A program made the position numbers and the translations under genes. Positions 47,521 through 63,944 of a stretch of 64,000 nt of DNA are shown here, one piece after another. Below the pieces are notes generated by a model that saw only the letters and a program-made list of their open reading frames with translations, was not told where the DNA came from and did not search any database. Source of the DNA: Roseibacillus persicicus (lineage in GTDB: Bacteria > Verrucomicrobiota > Verrucomicrobiia > Verrucomicrobiales > Akkermansiaceae); the NCBI RefSeq assembly GCF_014651675.1, contig NZ_BMXI01000013.1, positions 1 to 64,000 of the forward strand, read 5' to 3'. The first letter of the stretch is position 1. Every line of letters begins with the position of its first letter.

Positions 47521-48582
47521 ATGATAGAAGTTAATCAACAAGCCATTGCTGATCGATTGGGAATATCGCGAGCTACTGTCTCCAGATGTTTTACAAATCA
47601 CGCGGGTATTAGTCCGGTGACTCGGGCCAAAGTCTTTCAGGTCGCGGCCGAGATTGGATATACCCATATGGAAACGCGCGTGCCTTCGTCGAAGAAGAAA
47701 GCCAAGCGCAAGACCAACTTTAGCGTGCTCATCTGCAGTGATACGGAAGAGTATTTCCGTGGTGGATACCAGAGCCCCGGGGAGCAGATTTTGGCCGGAG
47801 TTTCGGAGTTTGCGCAGACTCACGACATTCGGGTCGATGTGAATTTGATTCCGCCCGAGGTGACGAGCTTGGACGATCCGGCTTTTCAAAAAATTGAAGG
47901 TCTGATGAAGCGTCAGGCCAGCGGGGTATTACTAATTTACCCATTTCCCGCCACCGTAATTGATGAATTGGCCCTGCGGTTTCCACTCGTCTCTTTGGTT
48001 GATCAGTTGGAGCACAGTTCTATCGATTGTGTGGATGTGGATCATTACAATGGAATCTCGACGGCAGTGGATCATCTTCTCGAAGCGGGCCATCGTCGTA
48101 TAGGATTCTATACCAAAGAGTATCCAGTGGCAGCGAGTTGGTCCTTCCGCCGCTATAGTGCTTTTGTCGAGAAAATGGCCCGGTTGAAGATTGAGGTGCC
48201 TCCCCAGGATGTTATTGGGATGTTCCCTCGCGCGACGATGGAGCTGGAAGAGAGTTTGGAGGAAGTGGCCAAGCGCACACGCGATGGAGTGACCGCCTGG
48301 ATTTGCGTGGCGGACCACCAGGCCTACGATGTGGTAGCGGGCTTGCAGGCCCGTGGCTTCTCGGTGCCAGAGGATGTGTCGGTTACGGGGTTCGATGGAA
48401 TTGAAGGCCCGGGCCAGAATCTGGCACTGACGACGATTCAGATTCCGTTCCGCGAGATCGGCAATACGGGGGCCGAGCGTTTGGCCGCCCGGCTGCGCCG
48501 TCGTTTCCATGGCAAACAGCACGTCTACATTTCCGGCCAGCTGAAGTCCGGCAAGACAGTCGCTCCACCTCGCGAGGGGTAG
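47521..48582 (+). CDS. LacI-family transcription regulator of the glucan locus
   Basis: The 353-residue regulator has an N-terminal helix-turn-helix (QQAIADRLGISRATVSRCFTNH, about 6-27) and a periplasmic-binding-protein-like effector domain from about 65 (FSVLICSDTEEY, SGVLLIYPFP, DCVDVDHYNG, TAWICVADHQAYDVVAGL, VTGFDGIEGP). The usual hinge segment with the Pro-Asn and Ala-Arg-x-Leu pattern is replaced by a very basic stretch (RVPSSKKKAKRK). It is therefore an atypical member that may contact DNA differently. It stands at the left end of the glucan locus, convergent with the symporter gene, and is the best candidate to bind the five TGCATRAARTTRCA sites. Confidence 0.88.
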   Translation: MIEVNQQAIADRLGISRATVSRCFTNHAGISPVTRAKVFQVAAEIGYTHMETRVPSSKKKAKRKTNFSVLICSDTEEYFRGGYQSPGEQILAGVSEFAQTHDIRVDVNLIPPEVTSLDDPAFQKIEGLMKRQASGVLLIYPFPATVIDELALRFPLVSLVDQLEHSSIDCVDVDHYNGISTAVDHLLEAGHRRIGFYTKEYPVAASWSFRRYSAFVEKMARLKIEVPPQDVIGMFPRATMELEESLEEVAKRTRDGVTAWICVADHQAYDVVAGLQARGFSVPEDVSVTGFDGIEGPGQNLALTTIQIPFREIGNTGAERLAARLRRRFHGKQHVYISGQLKSGKTVAPPREG

Positions 48583-48613: not shown

Positions 48614-49999
48614 TTACTCCGCGCTGGATGATTTTCGCTGTTCGGCGAGTTCCCGCTCGACCACGACCATCTGTTCTTCAGTCAGTTTATACCAAATCAG
48701 CACGATCCCGTTGGCGATGGCCAATGATCCGGGAAGGACGGTTGCAATGACGCGGAAGCTGGAGAGCACCTCCTCACTGGGCGGTTGATCAGGCACGAAT
48801 CCCACGCCGCCCAGAATCCAGCCGCATAGGCTACCGCCGATGGTGATGCCCAGTTTCTGGGAGAACATGGCGGCTGAAAAGGCGAGCCCGGTCACGCGCC
48901 GCCCGGACTTCCATTCTCCGTAGTCAGCGACATCGGTGTAGATGGACCAGACGAGGGCGGGGGTCGGGCCAGCGAGGAAGTTCCCGATAATATTCAAGAC
49001 AACCAGGGTCATGTATCCATCCCTGGGAATGAGGAAAAGGCCAACAACGAGAACTCCGTTGATTAGGGTGAGGGCCATCAGGCTATTGCGCTTGCCGAAT
49101 CGCCTGGTGAGCATTCCGGTAAAGAACACGCCTGCAATGAAGGCGATGGAACCGGTGGTCTGGACAAAGCTGATTTTATCGAGGAAAAGGAAGAACTTTT
49201 CGTCCCCCACCCCGAAGTAATATTTGAGGTATTGGGGGGTGATGGTCCAACGCACTGCAGCGCTGGAAAGGGTGAGGATTGCCGCCACCACCATGATGAT
49301 CCATGGGGTGTTCCGAAAGAGGGAGCCGAGATCCCCTCGCAGGTCGTTGTTCTTGCGGACCTGGGGTTTGATCCGCTCGCGGGTGGTTGCAAAGGTGGCG
49401 AGAAACATCAGGGTTGCCACCACGGCCAGCAATCCCATCGCACGGGGGAAGCCGACACCTTTATCACCTCCACCCAAAGCCATCACCATGGGGAGGAAGG
49501 TCATGGAGATGATGAGCTGGCCGGAGAATGCACCTACGAAGCGGTAGGTGGAAAGAGAGGTCCTCTCGCTGGAGGACGAGGTCATGACGCCCATCAACGC
49601 GGAATAGGGGACGTTGATGGCGGTGTAAGCCGACATCAGCGCGATGTAGGTGATGTAGGCGTAGATGAGCTTGCCGCCCTCACTGAACTGCGGGTTGGCA
49701 AAGGTCAGGTAGCCACAGATGCCGAAGGGGATGGCGAGCCACAAAAGGTAGGGCCGGTAGGTGCCATGCCGGGTGCGCGTGCGGTCGGCCAGGGCACCCA
49801 TCAGGGGATCGCTGATGGCATCCCAGAAGCGGGGAAGCAGGAGAAGTGTGCCCACGGTGGTGGGGTGGATTTTGCAAATCTCGGTATAGTAGAAAAAAAT
49901 CCACGCGTTGACGCCAAAGAAGAAGATATTCGAGGCGGTATCGCCGAGGCCGTAGCCGATCTTTTCCTGAACTGGCAGTCGGTGGGGTTTGGTGGACAT
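48614..49999 (-). CDS. GPH-family sugar:cation symporter (MFS)
   Basis: The 461-residue inner-membrane protein has 12 helices and the glycoside-pentoside-hexuronide family pattern: EKIGYGLGDTASNIFF at the N-terminus, the loop DPLMGALADRTRTRHGTYRPY after helix 2 and NVPYSALMGVMTSSSSERTSLS. Such symporters import glycosides or oligosaccharides with Na+ or H+. It is 27 bases downstream of the phosphorylase gene, so the two are one unit: import of short glucans followed by cytosolic phosphorolysis. The substrate beta-1,3-oligoglucoside is inferred from the GH81 gene nearby. Confidence 0.9.
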   Translation of the reverse strand: MSTKPHRLPVQEKIGYGLGDTASNIFFFGVNAWIFFYYTEICKIHPTTVGTLLLLPRFWDAISDPLMGALADRTRTRHGTYRPYLLWLAIPFGICGYLTFANPQFSEGGKLIYAYITYIALMSAYTAINVPYSALMGVMTSSSSERTSLSTYRFVGAFSGQLIISMTFLPMVMALGGGDKGVGFPRAMGLLAVVATLMFLATFATTRERIKPQVRKNNDLRGDLGSLFRNTPWIIMVVAAILTLSSAAVRWTITPQYLKYYFGVGDEKFFLFLDKISFVQTTGSIAFIAGVFFTGMLTRRFGKRNSLMALTLINGVLVVGLFLIPRDGYMTLVVLNIIGNFLAGPTPALVWSIYTDVADYGEWKSGRRVTGLAFSAAMFSQKLGITIGGSLCGWILGGVGFVPDQPPSEEVLSSFRVIATVLPGSLAIANGIVLIWYKLTEEQMVVVERELAEQRKSSSAE

Positions 50000-50026: not shown

Positions 50027-53000
50027 TCAGGAGACGAGCCACTCCGCGGGGAGATGGACTTCGACCCTGTCGATTCGGCCGGTTTGCCGCGTGAGTTCAC
50101 GAGTGAGCTCCTGATCAAGAATGGCATCTGGCAGCTGGAGTTCGCAACCGTCTTTGAGGTGAACTACGGCATGGGACCGATTGAGGTCCTCACGGCGGTG
50201 ATAGACGATCGTGGTTTGGGCCAGGGTGAAGGAGAGGGTGTCCGCGGGAAGCTCGTCGTGGCTGGGGCCGGATGGTAACCCGGCGAACTCGGCAGCCCGC
50301 AACAGGTGGGGCCGGAAGTGCAAGCATCCTTCCTTGAAGTTGACCCCTAGTTCGCCAAAGCGCGCGAGGATACCCTCCTTCACCTGACCTGTTAGGCCAG
50401 GCTGTTGTGCTCCGGCGTGACCCGGGCTGTGCGAGTAGGGTTCCGAGGGGAAGGCTCCATATCCTTCGGCGGATTGGCGGAAGCCCAGACCGCTTTGGAT
50501 TTGGTAGTAGCTCTGGGTCAGGCGGGCGCGGAGGTCGTCTTCGACTTCCTCTTGGGCAGCCTTTAGCGCGGTTTCCTGCGCTGCGACCATTAACTTGGAG
50601 ACCATGTGCCAATAGACGCATCCCAATCCCTCGTAGCCAAACATTCTGCCGCTTCGACCGGTAAAGGAGCGATGGTTGAAAGTCTCTTCATAGAGTTCCT
50701 CCACCTTGGAGCGATCGGCGGAGACGAGAGGGGCGAACTCGTCGTCCTTTTCCAAATTCTTGAACACCTTGGCCAAGGCATAGCCATTGGTGAGGGAGTC
50801 GTGGAATCGAAAGCCGCACACGGGGTCGGGGACGAGCAGTCGGAAGTCCTGGGCATGGAGCATTCGGGCAAGCAAAGGAATCGCCAGCGCCTTTTGTGGG
50901 GAGACTTGGTTGCATTCCAAAAAGCTGGGAATCTCGGCATCGGGATAGAGTAGATAAGTCGGGTGGCGCTGCGAGCGGAGAGCGCTCTCGGGCAGAAGTT
51001 CGAGGAGAGTCAGGGATTCTGACGGGCTCAAGAGCCCCGAGCTAAGGATCGCGACTTGTCCTTCCAACATGACCGAGAGCCGCTCGATGGTGAAGGCGTC
51101 TTGATCGCGTGCAATGGCCAGGATGTTGTAGGAGTGCCAGAGTCCATCCGCCCGGCGGTTCTGCATCAGCGTGCTACGGAGTGCTGAGAGAGCGTTGGCG
51201 AGGAAGTCGAGGACGTCCTGACAGGGGACCGTGGCGGGCTTCCCGGGGCCGTCCTGATAGACCGTGGTCCGGTACTTCTCTACCGAAAGTCCTGAGGTCT
51301 TGGCGAGTGCGAAGCGCTCCTCTGGATTGAGTGCTTCGGCTTGTTTCCAACGTTCGTTAGAAAAGTGGTCCGACAATTCTGCGATGAATTCGGTAAGTGC
51401 TGGTGTCAGGGAAAGTGAGTTGCTGTCGTGCTTCTGGACCTTGCGACGGAGAAAGGACAGGTAGCGGTAGAGGTAGCTGGCGGTGACCATGGAAAGTCCG
51501 CAGCCAGCGAGTGCATTGTTGGCATCGTTCCACTCGGGACGCTGGGTATTCATCCAGATCCCACCTCCCGGAATGAGGTTGGCGAGCTTGACGGCAGCAG
51601 GGAGAAGAAGTTTCTCAGCAAGAGTGACTTTGATAATGTTCCCCGATTGATCGCGCAGAAGAAGTCCGTCCGCCCCGACCTCTGCCTTGCGGCTCATGAG
51701 GGTGTCGTGGCGTTCCCGATCGAATTCCACGGTATCGCGGGGATCAGCGAGAGTGTCTTCCCAGCCTTTGAGTCGATAGGGGACATCGGTATAGACGTAG
51801 CCGCTGTGGTTCAGGCGACTGGCGATGGCATTGGGGTGAATCTTGACGTCCAGCTCGAGGAGTTTCAGGAGGTAGACGATCTGGTGGTCGCCCCAGTAGC
51901 CGATGGAGGCCCAGGGGTCGTCTTTGTCGGGGGCCTCCCAGTCGATCCCTTCGGAGGTGACCCGATAGGGATTGTTGCCATCAATGGTTGAGGCGTTGAG
52001 AAACTTGGAGATAAAGCTGCCGACGAAGTCGGGGTAGCTGAGCGCGAGGGCTTCCCAGTTCTGAAAAATATCGCGCCAGTTGCCTTCGTAGTGGTGGACG
52101 GGATGACCCGCCTCGTCTTCGACCCGGATGAAAAAGCGGTTCCAAGGACGGCTGGGGTCTCCATGGCGACGGCTGACGATGAGGGGGAGATACTCTTCTG
52201 TTAGACGAAGGAGGTCGCTGTTGTCCTGTGTTTTGACTTTCTCTAACAGTTCCCGCCGACTGAGGTCTTCGGGCAGGCTCTGGAGGAAACGTTCGAACTG
52301 ATTGCAAAGCGGGCGATTGTGAATCGTCAGGTGGGTAATGAATTGGTCACGGCGGAAGTGGTAGCCGTTTTCAGGAACACCGCCCCGCATGATATTACTG
52401 AGGGCATTGTGATAGTGATAAAGGGCGGTATCACGATCCGCGGTGTGCTGGAAGCCGTCTGCGGATGCCACCAATTGGCGGAGTTGCTCCCGTCCTTTGG
52501 CCACATCGGCCATCACTTCATCGACCAACTGGGCCGGGTTGGCAAGTTGAAGCTTCAGCTCCGCAACTTCGCTCTGGCTTTGTTCGATCTCCGCAACCAT
52601 CAGCCATTCGATCGATTCTCCGGGCGCGAGGGTGAGCTCGCGGGCTGGGAAGAATGCGCCCCGTTTGGCCCGGATGTTTTTGGGTGCAACCGGATTGTTT
52701 CCCCTGAGGAAGTCTTCCGCATCGCGTCGGGCCGTATAGACGGTTCCATCATCCAGACCGTGGTGCCAGACGGTCGTTGCACGCATGTTTTCCAAAGGGA
52801 TTGGCTCGTCGGTGATTCCCGCAGCCAGGCGATGCACCATCAGGGTGTTGCCGCACTCCAGTTCGCTGACTTTGTATGCATCGGCCAGGCAGCTGTATTC
52901 CTGCTGCATTCGGGTGCCCACGCCCGCGGGCAAGAGATTTTGCAAACCATCCACGAGGCGCAGTGAGCGGCTTTCACTGCCGTCATTGCTAAGCTTTGCC

Positions 53001-53482
53001 CGGCGCACAAAGCCGTATTTCTTTGAGAACTGCCAACGATAGGTAAAGCGCAGTGCCAGCTCCTCGTGGCGCTCGTCGAAGACGACCTCGTCGCCGAGAA
53101 GGCTCTTCATCAGGCGGCGACGAGTGGGGGTGAGAAGGGCGATGGAAGGGCGGAAGGGATTCCACAGAACCCCATCTGAAACGATTGCCGTCCATGGACC
53201 GGTGATGTTCCAGTTGCCCATGATCTTGTCCACGGTTTCGTAGGGAAAGAGGGCGGTCTCGGCCGATTCGCGCCCGGCTGTTAGAGCGCCATCACTGCTG
53301 CAGAACAGCCATTGGTCGCCGGAGCCAACAATGTTGAGAAAGAAGGGTTCGAAGGACTCCATTTCCTCGATGACGACATACTCCTCTCCGGAATCAACCG
53401 TCCAGCGATTCGCAGATTGGAAGCGGGTGCTGGGGGTCGATGGGACTTCAAAGAGTGTCTCTGGTTTTCGAGGCTGAGTCAT
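50027..53482 (-). CDS. large GH94/GH149/GH161-like glycoside phosphorylase
   Basis: The 1151-residue cytosolic protein (no signal peptide with ATG 53482) has an N-terminal beta-sandwich, then an (alpha/alpha)6 barrel. Visible motifs include HHYEGNWRDIFQNWEAL, IGYWGDHQIVYLLKLLE and RPEWNDANNALAG near residue 650. The WND element resembles the catalytic DWND of GH94 phosphorylases. Length and motif layout fit the long beta-1,3-glucan phosphorylase families GH149/GH161 better than the about 800-residue GH94. It would split imported oligoglucosides with phosphate to glucose 1-phosphate. This family choice is inferred from size, motifs and context. An upstream ATG at 53560 lies inside the operator-like region and would add a 26-residue extension, so it was not used. 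Confidence 0.8.
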   Translation of the reverse strand: MTQPRKPETLFEVPSTPSTRFQSANRWTVDSGEEYVVIEEMESFEPFFLNIVGSGDQWLFCSSDGALTAGRESAETALFPYETVDKIMGNWNITGPWTAIVSDGVLWNPFRPSIALLTPTRRRLMKSLLGDEVVFDERHEELALRFTYRWQFSKKYGFVRRAKLSNDGSESRSLRLVDGLQNLLPAGVGTRMQQEYSCLADAYKVSELECGNTLMVHRLAAGITDEPIPLENMRATTVWHHGLDDGTVYTARRDAEDFLRGNNPVAPKNIRAKRGAFFPARELTLAPGESIEWLMVAEIEQSQSEVAELKLQLANPAQLVDEVMADVAKGREQLRQLVASADGFQHTADRDTALYHYHNALSNIMRGGVPENGYHFRRDQFITHLTIHNRPLCNQFERFLQSLPEDLSRRELLEKVKTQDNSDLLRLTEEYLPLIVSRRHGDPSRPWNRFFIRVEDEAGHPVHHYEGNWRDIFQNWEALALSYPDFVGSFISKFLNASTIDGNNPYRVTSEGIDWEAPDKDDPWASIGYWGDHQIVYLLKLLELDVKIHPNAIASRLNHSGYVYTDVPYRLKGWEDTLADPRDTVEFDRERHDTLMSRKAEVGADGLLLRDQSGNIIKVTLAEKLLLPAAVKLANLIPGGGIWMNTQRPEWNDANNALAGCGLSMVTASYLYRYLSFLRRKVQKHDSNSLSLTPALTEFIAELSDHFSNERWKQAEALNPEERFALAKTSGLSVEKYRTTVYQDGPGKPATVPCQDVLDFLANALSALRSTLMQNRRADGLWHSYNILAIARDQDAFTIERLSVMLEGQVAILSSGLLSPSESLTLLELLPESALRSQRHPTYLLYPDAEIPSFLECNQVSPQKALAIPLLARMLHAQDFRLLVPDPVCGFRFHDSLTNGYALAKVFKNLEKDDEFAPLVSADRSKVEELYEETFNHRSFTGRSGRMFGYEGLGCVYWHMVSKLMVAAQETALKAAQEEVEDDLRARLTQSYYQIQSGLGFRQSAEGYGAFPSEPYSHSPGHAGAQQPGLTGQVKEGILARFGELGVNFKEGCLHFRPHLLRAAEFAGLPSGPSHDELPADTLSFTLAQTTIVYHRREDLNRSHAVVHLKDGCELQLPDAILDQELTRELTRQTGRIDRVEVHLPAEWLVS

Positions 53483-53563
53483 TATGGACGGAGAATTCAA
53501 AGTTTTTAGGAGAGTGGAAAGTGAGAGCCAGGATCGGCTAAGGAAGGTGAACTGCAACATGGT

Positions 53564-53577
53564 TGCATGAAATTGCA
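53564..53577 (-). promoter_or_regulatory. operator-like site 1 (phosphorylase promoter)
   Basis: Plus-strand TGCATGAAATTGCA lies 81 bases before the phosphorylase start. On the minus strand a TTGACC hexamer lies 5 bases upstream of the site, the same spacing as at site 5. An overlapping perfect inverted repeat TGCAAC-ATG-GTTGCA (53553-53567) adds a second half-site. Confidence 0.75.
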
Positions 53578-53726: not shown

Positions 53727-54401
53727 CTAGGGCTTGGGCTTTTCCGCAAGGCGGACTTCAGTGACGAACTTGCATTCCACTGGACCAAGCGCGGCATTGC
53801 TGCTGGGGACCAGGAAAACGAGTTGGCGCATGTCGCTGCGATGCTCCCAGACGGCGGTATAGAAAGGTTTTTGCAAATTGTCGGCGAGGAAGAGAAAGGC
53901 TTCCAGATTGCGGGATTTTCCACCCGGCTCGATGTCTACGGGCTTCCACCCGGGCGAAAGTTTCACTCCTTTTTTCTCAAAGCCAAAGGCGAGTTTTTTG
54001 TTGGTAATGTTGAAGATGCGCATGGTGCCCCACTTGAAGTCCGATTGGGCATCCTCCACGATTACGGGCTTCAGTCCGAAGGGCGTGCCGCGATCGGGCA
54101 TGAGAATGACGAGCGGATTCTGAGTTCCCGCTGGGATGGCGAGAGGGATGGAAAGGGGTTTTCCATCCTCACCGGGGCGGTCGGGGGCCACAAGCCGGAG
54201 ACCGTTGGTATCCTCGGGGATTGTGATCGGAGTGGTGCGGGCGGATGGATGCATGTAGGGCACTTCGAGGGTTTTCTCACCTTTTCCAATGGTCAGTTTG
54301 CGGGCCGCGACTTCATTGTCCCAAGCGAGGATTTGCAGAGAACCGGCCAAGAGCGGGTGGGCTGTTAGAAAGAGGGTGGTGAGGAGGGTTAGGGTTTTCA
54401 T
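53727..54401 (-). CDS. secreted partner of the giant pilin-like protein
   Basis: The 224-residue protein has a signal peptide (TLTLLTTLFLTAHPLLAGS). A beta-rich mature part follows with a distinctive LQILAWDNEVAARKL start and a WEHRSDMRQLVFL stretch. Its start overlaps the stop of the upstream giant gene by one base (TAATG), so the two are translationally coupled. Small secreted partners of this kind often follow Verru_Chthon cassette protein A genes. The function is unknown. Confidence 0.75.
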   Translation of the reverse strand: MKTLTLLTTLFLTAHPLLAGSLQILAWDNEVAARKLTIGKGEKTLEVPYMHPSARTTPITIPEDTNGLRLVAPDRPGEDGKPLSIPLAIPAGTQNPLVILMPDRGTPFGLKPVIVEDAQSDFKWGTMRIFNITNKKLAFGFEKKGVKLSPGWKPVDIEPGGKSRNLEAFLFLADNLQKPFYTAVWEHRSDMRQLVFLVPSSNAALGPVECKFVTEVRLAEKPKP

Positions 54402-57400
54402 TATGCGGAAAGATTGGGGGAAGTGCCTTGGATTTCGGTTTCGGAAAGATAGCGAAAGGATGTGACCCGGAGGCGCCGTCCAAATTTTTGATTGGTCTCA
54501 TTCAACTCGCTAGTGGGAGTGGCCTTGTCGTCGGAAGAGTCCACAAAATCAGGATATCGCTGCACGGTGGCCTCGGCCCAAACTTGGGCAAGGATCCGAC
54601 CAGAACGGTCGCGTGAGGTGCCGTAGCCTCGAACGGTGAAGGTGTCCGAACGGACGGTAATGATTGAGGCCAGAGGTTTGAGTACGTCGGCTTGCGTCAA
54701 GTAGCCGGGGATGCCGACTCCGGTATTGGCGGGGCTGATATTGGAGCGGGCGGAGCGCGAATAGCTGCGGGTGCTGAACTCTTCCACGAGGGCGTCCTCG
54801 TTGAGGCTGCTTTGGTCGATAGCCTCTTGCAGCACTCCAGCCAAGCCGAGTTCATCGGAGCTGACCCGGCGGTTGACGAATTCGCCGAGAGACAGGAAGG
54901 GACCACGGGCACGAATTCTCTCCACCAGCTTTTCAGCCAGAGTTTCGATCTGATTGTCACTCAGGGTGCGGAATCCCTGCCAGATGTCGTTGGCCTCGCC
55001 AACGGGATCGCGGAAGCGGGGAAAGGGCGTGGTGCCACTCGCTATCTCCGTGGTATTCCCCTCCACCTCGAAGCTTGCGCCGCGCAGCCCGCTGAGAATT
55101 GCCTTCCAGGAGGCGACGCTGGTCGAGTTGACATTGAAGGCTCCGTCGACCATCAGCTCGCCGGCGATTTTCAAGCAACCGATGGGCTCACTCAGGCTCT
55201 CGACGAGGCCGTCTTCACTCGCACTCGCTGGGTTGGCGAGTTTCATCCGGGGATTGCGCAAGGAAGCATTAGTCGGGCTTTCAAAGAAGTCCTCCAGAAT
55301 CGCGGAGACTGGTTTTTGCACTTGGGCCACTTCACGATCCCAGACTCCTTCTTCACCGGAGGCCGATGAGCGGCTGAGGGTCGGTGCCGCTCCGCTGAAG
55401 AAAAATCCGTCCCAGAGGGCCTCGTTGACCAAATAGCAATGGTCGATCTGAAGCGCTCCTTCGCTCACCCGGTCGCGTCGAACGTAGGCGCTTGCCCAAC
55501 TGTTGGCCAACTGGTTGGCGGGGGAGTAAGGGCTGGAACTGAGGTCGCAGTGTTGGAAGGCGGCGAGGGAAAGGAGAGGAGCGGAAGGAATCTCGAAAAA
55601 CGACAAGTGGGTGCGTCCTCCGATGGGTGTTTGCGAAGAGCCGTAATAGGCGGAGCGCCCGCCGTTGGCTGATTGCAAGACTCCGCTGAAGGAGGAGACC
55701 GACCTCATGCGTGTTTGATACTGAGGGCCAGCCTTGAAGTCGGCATTGGTGATGAAGGGATTCATCCAGGGTTGGCGCGGGTTGCCGGTGTAGAGCAAAT
55801 CCGCGACCTGAACATTGACGCCCTCGCTCGCCACGCGGTGATAGGACTCGATCACGCCAATGGGCACGGGTTCGGCCGAGAGTTGCGAGTAGGTGACGCG
55901 GGGGGACTCGAAGCGGACTGTTTCTCCGGTTTTGGAGAAGTTGCTCATCAGGATGTCGGCGATAGCCTTGCCGCGATCTTCCTCGGTGGGATCGGAACCG
56001 CGGGCCCGGGTGGCGTCTTCCAGGGAGATGTAGAAAGGGTAGTCCTCGCCGGGGATGGCCTGAAAGGTGAGCTGGGCGCTGTGATCGTTCTTGAGCTTTC
56101 TCACGAAGCCTTCGTTGCGCCGGAAATTCTTGGTGGGGATGGAAAGTCCGCCTTTGGTTGAAAACTGATCCAGACTGTCAACGGGACGGAGAAAGACAGT
56201 CCGGTCGCGGATGGAGCCCTCCACATCGAAGTTTTTGTGGGTTTGTTCCGCCGGGGCAAAGACGCGGACTTCACCGGGCTCGAAGCTGATCGTCTTGCCG
56301 CCTCCGCTTTCGCTCAGGGGTTTTCCATCCGCAGTGATGGCCGCGTAGAAATAGGGGTTCACGCTTCGCCCGTGGCCTTGATTGATGAACTGCAGGCTCA
56401 TGAGGCCGGAGGTATACATTGACTCGTTGGATACCTGTCGGCCTGCGGGATTGAAGGTGCGCCACTGGAAGTCATATGGCAGGTCGAGCCATGCGTGGGC
56501 CACGCAACCTTCGACCTCCAGCGCGACATTGTAGGGATTCCACAAGGTGATGACGGGGGTGATGATGAGGCGAAGTTCATCCGCTTCATTCATCCCTCCG
56601 CTGACGAGAAACATGATGCGGTCCATAACGGGGCGGATGCCCATCTGGGTCTGACTTGCCTCCACGGTCTCGGCGGGGGGAGGATAGTACCCGCGGGGGA
56701 CGCTCTGGGGAGTGGCGGCGATGTGATCGCTCTCCCGCTCAAAGACCGTCAGACCTTCCTCGGACTGATAGAGATGGTAGGGGATGCGATAATAGGAACG
56801 CAGCGAGTGGAAGGTTGGCACGGCAGTGACTGGAAAGTTGTGTTGCACATTCGCGGGCCAGAATTGCTTGGGAAAGTCGAGGTTGCCGCTATCCGCCAAC
56901 GGGGCGTAAAGCGGGCGTTGATTCTGATAGCTGCCCGGGGTGTTGAACTCGCCTTCCGCTCCGGCATGAAAGGGGTTGGGCAAGGTGGCACCTTCGCTAG
57001 ACCAGGTGGCGGCATTGAAGTCCGATTCCGACATCTCGAAGCCCAAGCTCATGTCCACCTTCAGGCCGCCCTCAACGACGTTGGTTAGAAGGCCCGCGCT
57101 GGTTGTAGTGAAATCCGCCGCCGCTTGATTCGAGTTGCCGCCACTAAAGAGATCCTGGTCCAGGGAGCTTTGGCCAAGGCTGGTGACCCGTCCGGCGCGC
57201 TTGTTCCACTCGTCATCGGGTTGCTTGAAAATGTCGCCTTCGACGTGGGGTCTGGGCTGCGCTTGTAGATCGTCGTTTCCGATGCGGTCGGCCTCCTCCG
57301 GGCCGGCGACATTGATCTTGGCCTTAGTGTTTTCCTGCGAAACTGCCCAAGCCAAACTCCCCTTTCCGTCGCCCAATTCGACAAGCGAGCCCTTCAAAGC

Positions 57401-57910
57401 GAATCCATCGTTCTCTTGACTGAAAAGCACCATGGCTTGACCCGAGGTGTCACCGGTTTGAGCCCAGTCCGCCTTTTCCAAGTCCTCGTCCCTGCCGGAC
57501 ACCAGCCAGCGAAGAAAGCGGCTATTCTTTTCTCCCTCATAGTTGATGTCACCGTCGGTCGGGTTCTTGGACAACTTGGGTGACCAGGACTCCCATACGC
57601 CCAAGGCATGAGTTTCTCCCGAGTCCCTCAACATTGAGCCATTGGCAGTTACTCGACGATCATCGCCCAGGGTTAACTGCAATTCCGCAACCGCCATGTT
57701 GATGGCCAATCGCGCATTGGCCCGTGCCTCGGCTTGTGCCTGATCCGCATTGGCTGCTCTCATGGTGAGGCTGGAAAGGCTCAAGAGTCCCACCGCGATT
57801 AACGACAAGAGAATCATCATGGTCACCGTGATGATGAGAGAGAATCCGTTTTTCGCGGCAAGGGATTGCAATCCAGAGACTTGGTGCGGATTGGATGATG
57901 AATTCTTCAT
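54401..57910 (-). CDS. giant pilin-like protein, Verru_Chthon cassette protein A type
   Basis: The 1169-residue protein begins with a type IV pilin/pseudopilin-like signal: basic N-terminus, KNGFSLIITVTMMILLSL and a hydrophobic helix (about 22-48) followed by NADQAQAEARANARLAINMAVAEL. The large C-terminal region ends with a helix-hairpin part (SLGEFVNRR). This layout fits proteins annotated Verru_Chthon cassette protein A. Its surface or secretion function is unknown. An operator-like site lies 45 bases upstream, so it is probably co-regulated with the glucanase and phosphorylase, and its gene is coupled to the small secreted partner downstream. Confidence 0.8.
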   Translation of the reverse strand: MKNSSSNPHQVSGLQSLAAKNGFSLIITVTMMILLSLIAVGLLSLSSLTMRAANADQAQAEARANARLAINMAVAELQLTLGDDRRVTANGSMLRDSGETHALGVWESWSPKLSKNPTDGDINYEGEKNSRFLRWLVSGRDEDLEKADWAQTGDTSGQAMVLFSQENDGFALKGSLVELGDGKGSLAWAVSQENTKAKINVAGPEEADRIGNDDLQAQPRPHVEGDIFKQPDDEWNKRAGRVTSLGQSSLDQDLFSGGNSNQAAADFTTTSAGLLTNVVEGGLKVDMSLGFEMSESDFNAATWSSEGATLPNPFHAGAEGEFNTPGSYQNQRPLYAPLADSGNLDFPKQFWPANVQHNFPVTAVPTFHSLRSYYRIPYHLYQSEEGLTVFERESDHIAATPQSVPRGYYPPPAETVEASQTQMGIRPVMDRIMFLVSGGMNEADELRLIITPVITLWNPYNVALEVEGCVAHAWLDLPYDFQWRTFNPAGRQVSNESMYTSGLMSLQFINQGHGRSVNPYFYAAITADGKPLSESGGGKTISFEPGEVRVFAPAEQTHKNFDVEGSIRDRTVFLRPVDSLDQFSTKGGLSIPTKNFRRNEGFVRKLKNDHSAQLTFQAIPGEDYPFYISLEDATRARGSDPTEEDRGKAIADILMSNFSKTGETVRFESPRVTYSQLSAEPVPIGVIESYHRVASEGVNVQVADLLYTGNPRQPWMNPFITNADFKAGPQYQTRMRSVSSFSGVLQSANGGRSAYYGSSQTPIGGRTHLSFFEIPSAPLLSLAAFQHCDLSSSPYSPANQLANSWASAYVRRDRVSEGALQIDHCYLVNEALWDGFFFSGAAPTLSRSSASGEEGVWDREVAQVQKPVSAILEDFFESPTNASLRNPRMKLANPASASEDGLVESLSEPIGCLKIAGELMVDGAFNVNSTSVASWKAILSGLRGASFEVEGNTTEIASGTTPFPRFRDPVGEANDIWQGFRTLSDNQIETLAEKLVERIRARGPFLSLGEFVNRRVSSDELGLAGVLQEAIDQSSLNEDALVEEFSTRSYSRSARSNISPANTGVGIPGYLTQADVLKPLASIITVRSDTFTVRGYGTSRDRSGRILAQVWAEATVQRYPDFVDSSDDKATPTSELNETNQKFGRRLRVTSFRYLSETEIQGTSPNLSA

Positions 57911-57955
57911 GGGACTCGATTAGGGAAAAAGCCAAGCTTGTGATTAAGACGGCTA

Positions 57956-57969
57956 TGTAACTTTATGCA
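57956..57969 (-). promoter_or_regulatory. operator-like site 2 (giant pilin-like gene)
   Basis: The minus strand reads TGCATAAAGTTACA, ending 45 bases before the ATG at 57910. It is in the same orientation relative to its gene as sites 3 and 4. Confidence 0.78.
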
Positions 57970-58071: not shown

Positions 58072-58110
58072 CTAACAGTGAGGCGAGAGGAACGCTGTTA
58101 GGTCTAACAA
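58072..58110. repeat. inverted pair of CTAACAG plus a third copy over the stop codon
   Basis: CTAACAG (58072-58078) and CTGTTAG (58095-58101) form an inverted pair 16 bases apart, immediately downstream of the mutarotase-like gene. TCTAACAA (58103-58110) overlaps that gene's TAG stop. The pair could fold into a hairpin ending the gene, but no T run follows. The core is that of the octamer scattered through the window. Confidence 0.6.
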
Positions 58111-59006
58111 CGCGATGAGTTTAATCGAATGGTGACAGTCCAATCTCGTTTTTCGTGCCTTTCCATTCGGGTCAGGGAGCTGGCAGGGAGTTCGCTGAGC
58201 CGGTCAAAGGCGCCATTGGTCGGCTCGATGGCCCAGTGATGGAGACCTTTCCAAGCTCCCCGGGTTACCCAAATCCCAGCCCATGGAAAGAGGTCGGAGG
58301 GCCACGAGAGTTCCAATGCGCTCTTGGCGCCCTGGACCTTGGCCATGCCTTGCTGGAAAGGTCCAAGAAAGACTTTTGCAGACGAAGGAATGGTGCTTCC
58401 TGTGTCTCCGCGGGAAAGGTCTTGTCCGGGAAGGGGGGAGGGCCAGGATAGGGCTTCTCCGCTTGGGCTGCGGCAGGTTTCGGGCCGGTCTTCGAAGGTC
58501 ATAATGTCGCCGTCTTCCAACTTGAGGAGAGCGTGCCAGGCCCACTGGAATGGGATTGTGTCGGGTGAACAATTTTCCAGCCGATAGCGCATGGTGATGG
58601 TGTCTCCTTCCAACCGGATGGCTCGTTTGAGAATCAGGGGCAGAGATTGGAGATGCCAGAGGCAAACGAGATCGCGGCCTTCGATCGAGAAGCCCGGAGC
58701 AGTTCGCCAAAGCTCGCCATGATCGGTGAACCGCCGGTTCCCGATGCGGCAGGGGAGGACAGTCGGGAGACATTCGTCGAGTCCAGCGCCGGGGCCGGAG
58801 TCATAGCGCTCGGGGTCGTCCGGATGCCAGAGCCGGCGTCTATCCGAGGGAGACCAACCATCCAGCCATTCGCGACTATTCAGTTTGTCGTAAATGGAGA
58901 CGACTCTCCCGCCTAGCTCCGGAACCAGGATTAGGTTTATCTGCTTGTTCGAAATGGTATGGCACACGAACCCTTCAACGACCTGGGTGCTGAGTTCGGT
59001 ATTCAT
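58104..59006 (-). CDS. aldose 1-epimerase-like (galactose mutarotase fold) protein
   Basis: The 300-residue cytosolic protein has a beta-sandwich of the galactose mutarotase type, with LVPELGGRVVSIYDK, GLDECLPTVLPC, DHGELWRTAPGF and the Trp/His pair of FQWAWHALLKLEDGD. It probably interconverts anomers of the sugars released by the locus, or it is a sugar-binding relative without activity. The classical catalytic Glu could not be placed with confidence. It is the second gene after the GH81 glucanase (28-base gap), so the two are one transcript. Its stop codon overlaps a TCTAACAA copy. Confidence 0.75.
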   Translation of the reverse strand: MNTELSTQVVEGFVCHTISNKQINLILVPELGGRVVSIYDKLNSREWLDGWSPSDRRRLWHPDDPERYDSGPGAGLDECLPTVLPCRIGNRRFTDHGELWRTAPGFSIEGRDLVCLWHLQSLPLILKRAIRLEGDTITMRYRLENCSPDTIPFQWAWHALLKLEDGDIMTFEDRPETCRSPSGEALSWPSPLPGQDLSRGDTGSTIPSSAKVFLGPFQQGMAKVQGAKSALELSWPSDLFPWAGIWVTRGAWKGLHHWAIEPTNGAFDRLSELPASSLTRMERHEKRDWTVTIRLNSSRC

Positions 59007-59034: not shown

Positions 59035-61257
59035 CTACTTCACGGTCAGGACTCCCGGCGCGGCAGTCAGGCTGGTTCCATCGGAGAAGCTCACCTGCAG
59101 GGGCTCTTTTCCATGGTTGAAGGCGGCATAAGTCCTCTTTCCGCCTTTGAGGTAAACGTTGCTGAAGAGGTGATCCGAGGTCACTGAAGCATCGTTGCGG
59201 CCCAGGGAGTTGAGAGTGTGAATCCAGTGATACATGAAGGCGTGGGTGTTGCCTCCCTCAAGACTGCATTGGGGATTTGCGTCGATGTAGTCCGCTGCCC
59301 GGTCGGGCTTGCTGAGAGCGCCAAACATACAGACGAGATCGCCCCAACCGTTGTTGAGGTCATTGCCTTGTTCGCGCTCCTTGACGATGCGGGAGTAGTT
59401 CTTCTCCACGTAGTCGGGGAAGCGGCCCATGTAGATGGATGCGGGGGTGAAAGGGAGCCAGTTGATGCCGTGGATGCAATCGATGTCGCCGGAGAACCAG
59501 GTTGCAAAGGCGCCCTTGCCTCCCCAGATCATGCCGAGGGCGACATTCGGAAACTCCCGGGGGAAATTCGTGCCGGAGACATCGAACCAGTATTCCTCCA
59601 CCGCGGTTCGCTCGGTATTGAACAAGAACAATCCCGTGTCCCTAATGCTTCGATTGCCGGTGACCTCTCCCCAGAGCATGAGGCCATACCAGGCGTTGAG
59701 AGACTCGGAGGATGATTCCTGATTGTTGCCATCGCCGAAGTTGGCATGGCCTGAAGCCCAAGAGTGGCCGGCATAGAAGTCGAAGCCGCGCATGCGGGGA
59801 AAGAGGGGGTCTGCGGGATCGGATGCGGCGATATCGCGGATGAGCAACTCGACCATTGGCGCCCACTTCTCGCCCCAAGCCGCATCGTAGCGGGCGGCTT
59901 CGGCTGCAGCGCGGATGAAGTAGCCGTAGTGAAAGTGATGGTCGTTGATCTGAGAGTCGCTCCCATACGAAGGCTTGGAGCCAATGAGGGTGCCCCAGTT
60001 CTGATTGTAGTAGAATTTCGGAGCTTCTTCGCTGGGTTCCGCTGTGAACCAATTCTCGAGGCGCGTCTTGACCTCGCTCAAGAACTGTTCTCGCAGTTCG
60101 GCGGCTTCCAGAACCTCGGCGATGCCGGCGAGGGTGGCCAATTTGCCCAAGTGCTTGCCCTCCCAGTAGGTGTCGCGATAGGTGTCGTCCTTTTTTGAGG
60201 CTTCCTCGGAGAGATAGGATAGCATGCGAGCACGGTCGGGAATGCCTTCCTTGGGAAGCATTGGGAGAAGCCCCTGTATGGGAACTTCGGTTGTGAAGGC
60301 GAGGCCGGAGACGAGCTTCATCTCACCGCGAACGGAGGGGTAGCTCAAGTTCAACGGTTTGTTAGGTGAGTATTTCCATTGATGCGGGTACAGCGCGGTG
60401 AGGGTGCCCGGGGAACCCTTTTCTTTGGCGGTGAGGGTGAATTGGTAGCGGGAATGAAGGGAGCCCTTCTGCTGTTTGAAAGTGACTCGCGTGGCTGAGA
60501 CATGGTTGTGGGCATGCTCGGCAAAGAGGGCGAGGGTCTCGGGCGAGTTGTCAGGCAACAAGGCGATGGTGAAGTAGGGCTCCGGGCTGCTATTGGTGAG
60601 TTTCTGACCCTCGATACCCGACCACTTTGAGCCCGCGGGGCCAAAGATTCCGTAGTGATGGCCGCGAAGGCTGACTCCCAGTGTTGCCGAGTTCTCATCA
60701 CCAGCCCAGATGATGGGCTTTTCACCGCAAAGGATGATTCCCTTTCCTCCAAGAGCCTCGCAAAAAACATAGGGGCTGCCGTGGCCAAAATGGGTGAGCA
60801 ACTGCTTGCCGTCCTGGGAGAACTCGGCGGTGATAAACCAGTCGGAAGAACCGGCATAGTTTGCCTGCGGGAATTGGATGCCCTCCATGGCGATAGTGAG
60901 GTCGCCGCCCTGTGGGATCCCGCCTCCCATGATGTTCCCGGAAGAGCCGTCAATCGCCGAACCCGGATCACTCACGACGAGCCCGTTGTTGGTGCAAAGC
61001 AGAACCATCGGATGGGCGAAAAGAGGTTGCGAGAACTCGTTCCAAACAAGTGAACTCCACCACTGGTTGGTTGGGGTCGCGCCGGTCAGAGAGGGAATCT
61101 TGTAGATCTTCTCAGGCAAAGCTTCGCAATGTTCGGGGCGCTCCAAAGAGTAGCTTCCTGCACCGAGGGAGACTTCTTTGCCCGATAGCTGCGTCGAGTT
61201 GCAAAGGAGCAGCAATGCGATGAGAGCGGAGGCGGTGGTGTTGAGAGTGACTGACAT
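59035..61257 (-). CDS. GH81 endo-beta-1,3-glucanase, secreted
   Basis: The 740-residue enzyme cleaves beta-1,3-glucans such as laminarin or curdlan outside the cytosol. A signal peptide (LNTTASALIALLLLCNSTQLSG) is followed by a beta-sandwich domain, the linker and the (alpha/alpha)6 catalytic domain. Active-site motifs are NDHHFHYGYF near 437, DFYAGHSWASG and DGNNQESSSES near 513-520. The two Glu of NQESSSE correspond to the catalytic residues of GH81. A small C-terminal beta-domain closes the protein. An operator-like site lies 29 bases before its start. The mutarotase-like gene follows on the same transcript. Confidence 0.9.
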   Translation of the reverse strand: MSVTLNTTASALIALLLLCNSTQLSGKEVSLGAGSYSLERPEHCEALPEKIYKIPSLTGATPTNQWWSSLVWNEFSQPLFAHPMVLLCTNNGLVVSDPGSAIDGSSGNIMGGGIPQGGDLTIAMEGIQFPQANYAGSSDWFITAEFSQDGKQLLTHFGHGSPYVFCEALGGKGIILCGEKPIIWAGDENSATLGVSLRGHHYGIFGPAGSKWSGIEGQKLTNSSPEPYFTIALLPDNSPETLALFAEHAHNHVSATRVTFKQQKGSLHSRYQFTLTAKEKGSPGTLTALYPHQWKYSPNKPLNLSYPSVRGEMKLVSGLAFTTEVPIQGLLPMLPKEGIPDRARMLSYLSEEASKKDDTYRDTYWEGKHLGKLATLAGIAEVLEAAELREQFLSEVKTRLENWFTAEPSEEAPKFYYNQNWGTLIGSKPSYGSDSQINDHHFHYGYFIRAAAEAARYDAAWGEKWAPMVELLIRDIAASDPADPLFPRMRGFDFYAGHSWASGHANFGDGNNQESSSESLNAWYGLMLWGEVTGNRSIRDTGLFLFNTERTAVEEYWFDVSGTNFPREFPNVALGMIWGGKGAFATWFSGDIDCIHGINWLPFTPASIYMGRFPDYVEKNYSRIVKEREQGNDLNNGWGDLVCMFGALSKPDRAADYIDANPQCSLEGGNTHAFMYHWIHTLNSLGRNDASVTSDHLFSNVYLKGGKRTYAAFNHGKEPLQVSFSDGTSLTAAPGVLTVK

Positions 61258-61286: not shown

Positions 61287-61300
61287 TGTAATTTTATGCA
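61287..61300 (-). promoter_or_regulatory. operator-like site 3 (GH81 promoter)
   Basis: The minus strand reads TGCATAAAATTACA, 29 bases before the GH81 start codon at 61257. Confidence 0.78.
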
Positions 61301-61553: not shown

Positions 61554-61567
61554 TGCATAAAGTTGCA
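61554..61567 (+). promoter_or_regulatory. operator-like site 4 (carbohydrate-binding-like gene)
   Basis: TGCATAAAGTTGCA lies 148 bases before the start at 61716. It is the copy with the best symmetry after site 1. Confidence 0.78.
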
Positions 61568-61715
61568 TTCTTGGAGTCGCGGGTTTTTCCCGTTTTTCCG
61601 AATGCAGCAACCGAGCTACCAAGCCCCCTCACGGCGGGGGAATGACAGTTGGCAGCGACGAAACCAACAACAGGCTGACTCCGCTCTCAAGCGGCTGCCC
61701 AGCCACCTGAATGAA

Positions 61716-63731
61716 ATGAAAAACCTAGACAAAACCCTGCTAGTAGGAGCCCTTCTGGGCACCGTTGCTAGCGCCCATGCGGCACCCTTCCTCGTCCCTA
61801 ACGGCGATTTTTCAACCCCAGATGGAGCTGACTGGACCCAGGCTTCTTCCGAAGGGACCATCATCAGTTACCAGTTATCTGGTGGCAGTAGTGACGGCTA
61901 CGCGGAGATTGACAATACGAGCGGATCCTGGGGCGGCGTTCTGGTATCCGAGGGAGGTTCGGGACCGAATCCGGCTGTGGGAGATGGCATTCCTCTTTCC
62001 GAACTCGGGCTGACTGCGGGTGAGACCTACACCTTTAGTTTGGATATGATTAATTTGGGGGCGGGAGCGAATCAGGCGGGAATGAAGATGGAAAGTTGGG
62101 CTGGTGGCTTCCTCGATAATGGAGCGGGCGATGTTGTCTTTCCGCTGACGAATTCGTGGGAAACCTATAGTCTGGAGTACACCATCAATCCGGCGGCTAC
62201 TCATCTGAAGTTTGTGCCACTGCTAGTGAATTTTTCGGGGCCGGTTGGCTTTGACAATGTCGGCGGAGACAACACCGCCCTGGTGCCCCCTCCCTTTGAG
62301 CCCCTTGAAATCGAAAATGGAGACTTTGAGATTCCTGACGGAGTTGGTTGGGGCACGGGGCAAGGAACTCCGGTTTACAATGCTACCGGAGGGAACCCGA
62401 ATGGACATGTGGTGCTGGATGGGACTGCGGAATTCGCTGTCCTTTATGGCTTTAACAACATGGAAGTCAGCTTCGAGGCTTTGGGGCTCGCGCCCGGGGA
62501 TACCTTTCTCCTGCAAATGGACATCAAGCTGATCTCGGGGAATTTCGGTGCCGGCTATCGACTGGAAGGTCCCTCCGGCTATGTCATCGACGAGACCTTC
62601 GAGGTGATTGGGAATGGATCCGATTGGGCGACTTACTCGGTGGAGTTGACCGTTCCGGCTTCGCCCGGTCAGACGAAGATTGGTCTCCGACCCGGTGGTT
62701 CGGTGGTGGCTTTCGACAACGTCAGCATCGTAAATCCCGAGGAAATCCCTTTCAGCGCGGAAGTGGTGAAGGGTGCGATTGTCAACTGGGTGCCGACAAG
62801 TGCGACCAACAGCTATCAGCCGCAGAAATCCGCGGATGGGGTCACCTTCACCAACTTGGGACCGGCAATCGAAGGGAACAGCATCTCATCCGTCTATGAT
62901 GCGGAGCCAGCATTGTTCTACCAAGTGGTGGAGGCGAGCATTGAGGACTCTGACGATGTGTTGAATGGAGGCTTCGAGTCTGTGGACGAGTTCGATTCCT
63001 TTTGCGCGCAAGCGTGGACCTGTCTCGCAGGCGTCATCAACGATCAATTTGCCACCCGGCTGGCAACTGACAACACGGTCGCCGGCACGATTGCGACCCC
63101 GGACCAAGTGCGGACTGGCGTGGCCGCCCTCCAGCTAAAGGTGGTCAATGCCGAGACCGAGGCCTTGCCCGGCAAGAGTCTGACCCAACAGAATGTCCTC
63201 AACAGCGGGGGGAGTATCACTCCGGGCAACACTTATACTTTCTCCTTTTGGGCAAAGCAGGTCAGTAGTGGACCAAGCTACGTGCAAGGCTACAAGTTGG
63301 CTTGGCTGGAAGAAAGTGGAGGAGTGATTAGCGTCGGCGCCGAAGGCGGCTTTGCGGGTGGTGACGGGGAGTGGGCTGAGACTGCTGTCGCCGGACTGGT
63401 GGCGCCAGCGAACGCAACCTCCGCGCTGATCGAAATCTTCGGAGCCACTGGCGCGGTCGACGGGGCCTTCGGCGAGGTGCTTCTGGACGACATTTCCTTA
63501 ATCACGGAGGGAAGCTCTCCAATTGGAACCCTGCCCGCCACTACTTCCACGGGCATGGGGGTGACCTATCCGACCTTGGAAGGATTCAGCTATCAGGTGC
63601 AGGCATCCAGCGACTTGATCAGCTTTTCCGACTTGGGAGAGGCCGTTATTGGTGATGGCAATCCTGCCACGATTGGCGAGCCATCCGAGGAGCGTAAGTT
63701 CTTTCAGGTGGTGAAGACTGTCACGCCATAA
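61716..63731 (+). CDS. secreted multi-domain protein with three CBM-like modules
   Basis: The 671-residue protein has a signal peptide (TLLVGALLGTVASAHAA). Three jelly-roll modules of the CBM4/9 or DUF642-like kind follow, each opening with a NGDF/NGGF motif: FLVPNGDFSTPDGADW near 25, LEIENGDFEIPDGVGW near 185 and DVLNGGFESVDEFD near 400. Two short modules of a verrucomicrobial type that end in FYQVV or FFQVV complete it. No catalytic motif and no PEP-CTERM tail were seen. It probably binds the glucan or the cell wall outside the cell. ATG 61716 starts the signal; the frame is open further upstream but with no signal-like start. Confidence 0.8.
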   Translation: MKNLDKTLLVGALLGTVASAHAAPFLVPNGDFSTPDGADWTQASSEGTIISYQLSGGSSDGYAEIDNTSGSWGGVLVSEGGSGPNPAVGDGIPLSELGLTAGETYTFSLDMINLGAGANQAGMKMESWAGGFLDNGAGDVVFPLTNSWETYSLEYTINPAATHLKFVPLLVNFSGPVGFDNVGGDNTALVPPPFEPLEIENGDFEIPDGVGWGTGQGTPVYNATGGNPNGHVVLDGTAEFAVLYGFNNMEVSFEALGLAPGDTFLLQMDIKLISGNFGAGYRLEGPSGYVIDETFEVIGNGSDWATYSVELTVPASPGQTKIGLRPGGSVVAFDNVSIVNPEEIPFSAEVVKGAIVNWVPTSATNSYQPQKSADGVTFTNLGPAIEGNSISSVYDAEPALFYQVVEASIEDSDDVLNGGFESVDEFDSFCAQAWTCLAGVINDQFATRLATDNTVAGTIATPDQVRTGVAALQLKVVNAETEALPGKSLTQQNVLNSGGSITPGNTYTFSFWAKQVSSGPSYVQGYKLAWLEESGGVISVGAEGGFAGGDGEWAETAVAGLVAPANATSALIEIFGATGAVDGAFGEVLLDDISLITEGSSPIGTLPATTSTGMGVTYPTLEGFSYQVQASSDLISFSDLGEAVIGDGNPATIGEPSEERKFFQVVKTVTP

Positions 63732-63930: not shown

Positions 63931-63944
63931 TGCATAAAGTTACA
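63931..63944 (+). promoter_or_regulatory. operator-like site 5 (gene beyond the window)
   Basis: TGCATAAAGTTACA occurs in the non-coding right end. A TTGACC hexamer starts 11 bases before it, the same arrangement as site 1 on its gene's strand. It predicts another member of the glucan regulon starting just after the window, on the plus strand. Confidence 0.72.

Follow-up and report, generated by a model that had tools for sequence, protein, structure and literature searches.

A giant protein with a predicted GspK-type core in a putative beta-1,3-glucan regulon of Roseibacillus persicicus

Roseibacillus persicicus (Verrucomicrobiota, Akkermansiaceae) encodes a giant protein of 1169 amino acids (aa) with a prepilin-like N-terminus, which is followed by a small secreted partner and lies among genes for beta-1,3-glucan use. 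The DNA analysed, here called the window, comprises 64,000 nucleotides (positions 1 to 64,000 of contig NZ_BMXI01000013.1, assembly GCF_014651675.1). In its predicted fold the core of the giant resembles GspK, a tip subunit of the type II secretion system (T2SS) pseudopilus, and the operator that precedes it also precedes the gene for the endo-beta-1,3-glucanase GH81. The two genes, and the operator sites in the window, are the following.

54401..57910, minus strand: giant minor-pseudopilin-like protein, 1169 aa (open reading frame (ORF) and AlphaFold model), laid out as an N-terminal helix (24-81), a C-terminal GspK-like part (about 900-1160) and a large insert between both
53727..54401, minus strand: small secreted partner, 224 aa, two tandem beta-sandwich domains (ORF and AlphaFold)
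57956..57969, minus strand: operator TGCATAAAGTTACA, 45 bases (57911-57955) before the start codon of the giant
61287..61300, minus strand: operator TGCATAAAATTACA, upstream of GH81
61554..61567, plus strand: operator TGCATAAAGTTGCA, upstream of or at the 5' end of a gene for a CBM_4_9 protein
63931..63944, plus strand: operator TGCATAAAGTTACA, upstream of another gene for a CBM_4_9 protein, whose start falls immediately past the window end
53564..53577, plus strand: operator-like site TGCATGAAATTGCA with 1 mismatch, at the 5' end of GH149

The original prediction, made from this DNA alone, had placed a copy of the operator 45 bases 5' of the giant, and this copy is indeed present at 57956-57969. 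The exact pattern TGCATAAARTTRCA is found at 5 sites in the 5.28-Mb genome, all of them within 9.3 kb (C13:57956-67174), where they precede the giant, GH81, two CBM_4_9 genes and one small ORF. Allowing one mismatch gives 12 sites in the genome, against 2 for the reversed control pattern. Within the window there are 5 sites at up to 2 mismatches where 0.53 are expected, a number that no shuffle attains; the operator occurs beyond chance. Its owner is likely the LacI-family regulator encoded at 47521-48582. A scan for sigma-70 promoters 5' of the giant gave no match. The neighbouring genes include the following.

59035..61257, minus strand: GH81 endo-beta-1,3-glucanase with a signal-peptide-like N-terminus (Pfam PF17652, E 1.6e-67)
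58104..59006, minus strand: weakly aldose-1-epimerase-like protein, 28 bases 3' of GH81 (Pfam E 0.045, under the cut-off)
50027..53560, minus strand: GH149 beta-1,3-glucan phosphorylase (NCBIfam NF058639, 1283 bits against a cut-off of 1150)
48614..49999, minus strand: GPH-family sugar:cation symporter (TIGR00792, 351 bits)
47521..48582, plus strand: LacI-family regulator (Pfam LacI and Peripla_BP_3)
61563..63731, plus strand: secreted protein with a CBM_4_9 domain (domain search) and an operator at the 5' end of its gene

By this gene content (GH81, GH149, GPH symporter and LacI) the neighbourhood is a predicted beta-1,3-glucan regulon. A second cassette of giant and partner lies about 15 kb from the one in the window (C13:72459-76859, or L052:12460-16860) and has no glucan operator.

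An ORF of 1169 residues with a pseudopilin-type N-terminus had been predicted, and the translation of 54401-57910 agrees: it starts in prepilin-like fashion (...KN-G22-FSLIITVTMMILLSLIAVGLLSLSS) without Glu at +5. The GFxxxE motif of type IV pilins is not matched, the giant reading GFSLII, and there is no match to TIGR02532. In an alignment of 78 giants the prepilin Gly-1 is invariant and Glu at +5 is found in none of the 78 rows. Lack of Glu5 is a trait of GspK, and its universal lack in the giants is consistent with the structural match to GspK. The label of a Verru_Chthon-type protein that the original prediction had attached is not supported. Verru_Chthon cassette protein A (TIGR02600) is similar in size and in the N-terminal 60 or so positions, but only positions 1-58 of the giant align, the score is far under the cut-off (18.8 against 332.3 bits), and neither the partner nor the other neighbours scanned match any NCBIfam model of a Verru_Chthon cassette protein, so that no cassette protein is recognised next to the giant.

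An AlphaFold run on the giant, with 78 sequences in the alignment, gave a confident model (predicted local distance difference test (pLDDT) 91.2, predicted template modelling score (pTM) 0.90). When compared with VIA-align, GspK (3ci0_K) matches the model with Z 11.5 and 3.1 A; 237 of the 280 GspK residues are aligned, at model positions that range from 51 to 1160. The next-best chain of the PDB compared has Z 5.6 and covers an Ig-like part of the insert, leaving GspK as the only strong match. The model thus supports a core of the type of a GspK minor pseudopilin that bears a huge insert. It also lends support to the surface or secretion apparatus that had been predicted, since GspK is the tip subunit of the T2SS pseudopilus. 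An ordinary GspK of 317 aa is encoded at C6:75803-76753 in a canonical gspG-K operon; the giant lies outside the gsp operon and would therefore be an additional K-type subunit. The genome further encodes a prepilin peptidase, PilB/GspE and PilT ATPases, and secretins. On contig C2 (L234:6309-12406) there are two tandem GspE/PilB-type ATPases, a PilC-like protein and pilin-like genes, possibly another filament machine that could partner the giants.

This fold allows a different role, in which the giant replaces GspK at the T2SS pseudopilus tip and selects and exports GH81 and the CBM proteins, without binding glucan. The GspK fold of the model fits such a secretion adaptor, as do the canonical T2SS operon with GspG, GspK and GspD in the genome and the co-regulation of GH81 and CBM proteins that have signal-peptide-like N-termini. 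The distribution of the giants speaks against it. In two genera, g2 and f9/g31, genomes encode giants while GspG does not rise above its cut-off; one of the two is a genus of small genomes from the host family, probably Akkermansia. The two g2 genomes searched (G005, G021) gave no GspK match. The partner machine therefore need not be a canonical T2SS. Conversely, some genomes with a T2SS have no giants, and many LacI loci contain GH81 with no giant close by. Export of the enzymes by the giant is regarded as unlikely, if the leading one among the rival explanations.

The partner of the giant had been predicted to be small, secreted and translationally coupled, and the sequence agrees: the stop of the giant and the start of the partner overlap as TAATG, and the partner begins with a Sec-type signal (MKTLTLLTTLFLTAHPLLAG). 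A match to the hidden Markov model (HMM) of the partner lies directly 3' of 97 of the 113 giants with room for one, some of the 16 misses being overlap effects; the partner is near-obligatory beside giants. Its AlphaFold model (pLDDT 93.9) matches the PepT2 ectodomain (Z 12.8-13.9) and AlgF domains (Z 7.9-8.0). Profile searches of PDB sequences gave no credible match for the partner, nor for the giant. In some cases two partner homologues follow a giant in tandem (L071:12877-13599, L078:11574-12257, L106:8530-9261).

The genome encodes 18 giants, that is, the one in the window and 17 paralogues. Among 194 genomes taken from across the phylum, 53 have members of the family. Identity between paralogues is 7-15% over most of residues 300-750 and mostly 30-47% at both ends, whereas the closest homologues are about 35-44% identical over residues 300-750. 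An insert that is kept between orthologues and not between paralogues would be expected if it fits a ligand or enzyme specific to the locus. Related designs were seen as well. On contig C5 (L070:6724-10696) a separate protein of 1103 aa matches GspK and Verru_Chthon-A weakly and has a secreted neighbour of its own (225 aa); it may represent a second family of giants built to the same plan. Probably in Akkermansia, a giant of 1303 aa with a secreted neighbour of 309 aa is paired back to back with another giant, about 980 aa long (L161:8379-16731), and this pair is a possible counterpart of the Akkermansia MUL1 system. Giants are also found in public metagenome-assembled genomes titled Akkermansia muciniphila (L077, L093, L110, L119, L135, L140); the species label of these is doubtful, and they resemble other, perhaps environmental, Akkermansiaceae.

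MUL pili have been reported from Akkermansiaceae (PMC13174399). A further explanation would have the giant anchored in the inner membrane by its pilin-like helix as an inner-membrane or periplasmic scaffold that, with the partner, holds glucan and enzymes in the periplasm, comparable to the periplasmic MUL complex reported from Akkermansia. Aquatic and gut Verrucomicrobiota store glycans in the periplasm, MUL1 has been likened to the Sus system (PMC13174399), glycosidases of Akkermansia associate with Mul1A (PMC11790493), and the giant family is present in the small-genome genus of the same family that is probably Akkermansia. A mere anchor, however, needs neither an invariant prepilin motif nor a GspK core, and a scaffold seems about as improbable as the secretion adaptor.

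The link between giant, regulator and operator recurs in other genera. In 15 of 20 loci with LacI orthologues from other genera (45-74% identical) the operator is found at up to 1 mismatch, and in several of these orthologue loci it lies directly upstream of lacI. Two loci that were found through the giant, L075 and L078, are syntenic and bring together LacI, GH149, GPH symporter and giant, with 0 mismatches in the operator upstream of the giant in L075 and 2 in L078; in L075 a GH16 gene comes after the partner. In L193, GH81 (66%), the giant (63%) and LacI (74% identical) are all related to those of the window, and an exact operator lies near the 5' end of the giant. Three further loci (L208, L209, L212) hold a giant of a different lineage within the LacI/GH149 locus, and in L209 an operator lies upstream of the giant operon. 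In a tree of 101 giants the seven giants from LacI loci split in two clades, and a forced single clade was rejected (p-AU 6e-78 in the approximately unbiased test). The association of giants with the LacI locus therefore arose at least twice, two separate giant lineages having joined the glucan locus. The predicted co-regulation with GH81 is thus well supported at the level of sequence, with an operator confined to the locus and LacI, operator and giant recurring together in other genera.

It is worth noting that LacI and TGCATAAARTTRCA together make up a beta-1,3-glucan regulon that is met again in several families of the phylum and shows signs of autoregulation, and that the operator could serve for genome-wide prediction of glucan genes. 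In family f12, the three loci with the other giant lineage encode a protein of about 160 aa between LacI and the giant (L208:10888-11382, L209:10818-11297, L212:8646-9134); in L208 and L209 the gene for this protein is preceded by an operator-like site.

Whether such genes ever sit beside carbohydrate-active enzymes (CAZymes) was a question raised by the original prediction, and the answer from the survey is mixed: CAZyme loci with giants exist, and many paralogues stand beside housekeeping genes, with no clear enrichment. Neighbours of the other giants of the genome include four sulfatases, two GH20, one GH30 and one PL11-type lyase, families that are absent from the top families listed for a random control (third batch left out). 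A general family of adhesion or pilus proteins scattered in the genome, one copy of which happened to come under the glucan operator and helps the cells attach to algal particles with no preference for glucan, would account for 18 copies, many of them next to housekeeping genes, and for homologues 45-53% identical outside glucan loci. It does not sit well with an operator and locus that are kept with orthologues in other genera, or with two independent associations with the same regulator, and is the least probable of the explanations considered.

The reading tentatively preferred, which is held with slightly less than even confidence, is that the giant is an exchangeable, locus-specific and oversized K-type subunit at the tip of a type IV filament and serves to capture or handle glucan. 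Regulon membership, the prepilin signature, the GspK-like core, the insert and the partner are taken from sequence and models; from these we infer processing, tip placement, glucan binding and transport as follows. Oligosaccharides of the laminarin type would relieve LacI, so that giant and partner are made together, and the giant would be processed by the prepilin peptidase and cap a type IV filament (T2SS pseudopilus or type IV pilus) built by housekeeping machinery. At the filament tip, insert and partner together may bind either beta-1,3-glucan or the secreted enzyme that acts on it, and movement of the filament would bring the glucan towards or through the envelope. GH81 would cleave it, the GPH symporter would import the oligosaccharides, and GH149 would phosphorolyse them. 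The other 17 giants of the genome could be the same device for other substrates.

Several observations weigh against this reading. Beyond the N-terminus, similarity to GspK is undetectable at the sequence level (hhalign aligns the N-terminal 61 columns only, with probability 67-72), the giant scores 13.3 bits against a cut-off of 130 with the GspK family model NF037980, and it is not among the PF03934 (Pfam T2SSK) matches of the genome. Because Foldseek alone gives GspK at E 0.1 only and the profile comparison is limited to the N-terminus, the GspK reading rests on the model. A carbohydrate-binding module is recognised in neither the giant nor the partner; of the predicted apparatus for polysaccharide capture, the apparatus is backed by the GspK-like core of the model, and capture is plausible and unproven. 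Taken alone, the number of LacI loci that contain a giant is weak evidence (P 0.02, rising to 0.19 if one family is entered a single time). At most of the LacI/GH149/GH81 loci of sister genera no giant lies within 10 kb, and the giant is therefore not essential to glucan use. The closest homologues (L071, 53%) can adjoin housekeeping genes. Lastly, in relatives CAZymes are not clearly richer among near than among distant neighbours of giants, and for this reason CAZyme adjacency in general is not used as support.

A wider proposal, which must be called doubtful, is that Verrucomicrobiota have sets of exchangeable, substrate-specific filament tips, in which two-gene cassettes on one shared machine choose the glycan captured, as SusD/SusC do in Bacteroidota. 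Under this proposal there would be many cassettes of giant and partner per genome, some of them under the regulator of a polysaccharide locus. No description of giant proteins with a GspK fold and a partner under a polysaccharide regulator was found in the open-access papers searched, which do not include the key Akkermansia paper. Uptake of large polysaccharides by Verrucomicrobiota is of the "selfish" kind, and according to a 2026 study the mechanism by which aquatic Akkermansiaceae acquire their substrates is largely understudied (PMC13174399). A regulated giant with a dedicated partner is a concrete and deletable candidate for the polysaccharide-capture machinery of the phylum, and the giants tie pilus and secretion biology to marine carbon uptake and perhaps to mucin use by Akkermansia.

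Several known systems invite comparison. GspK (3ci0_K) and the giant both lack Glu5 and have a long N-terminal helix and, in the predicted fold, the same core, but GspK has 280-317 aa against 1169 for the giant, which has a huge insert, 18 copies and its own secreted partner. AlgF, the extracellular domain of PepT2 and the modelled partner all have tandem beta-sandwiches, whereas no similarity was detected in PDB sequences, and the fold alone gives no function. Filament tips are known to be capped by K subunits, and Streptococcus sanguinis has a glycan-binding modular minor pilin in PilC (PMC9934059). PilB and PilC of that species resemble the giant in joining a pilin moiety to a large extra module, shown at the filament tip; they differ in that the modules are on other pilin types, while the giant has a diderm host and no recognised lectin module. 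For the related verrucomicrobium Verruconatronum alginivorum, the passages of PMC13274419 on its PulG-like pseudopilins give numerous copies, as for the giants, and one that is over-expressed on the polysaccharide alginate; a partner cassette such as the giants have is not mentioned in those passages. MUL1 and MUL2 of Akkermansia muciniphila come from the same family as the host, and glycan accumulation there needs pilin-type proteins (PMC13174399, PMC12418764); MUL2 comprises Amuc_1099-1102, and its MUL2A resembles a type IV pilin.

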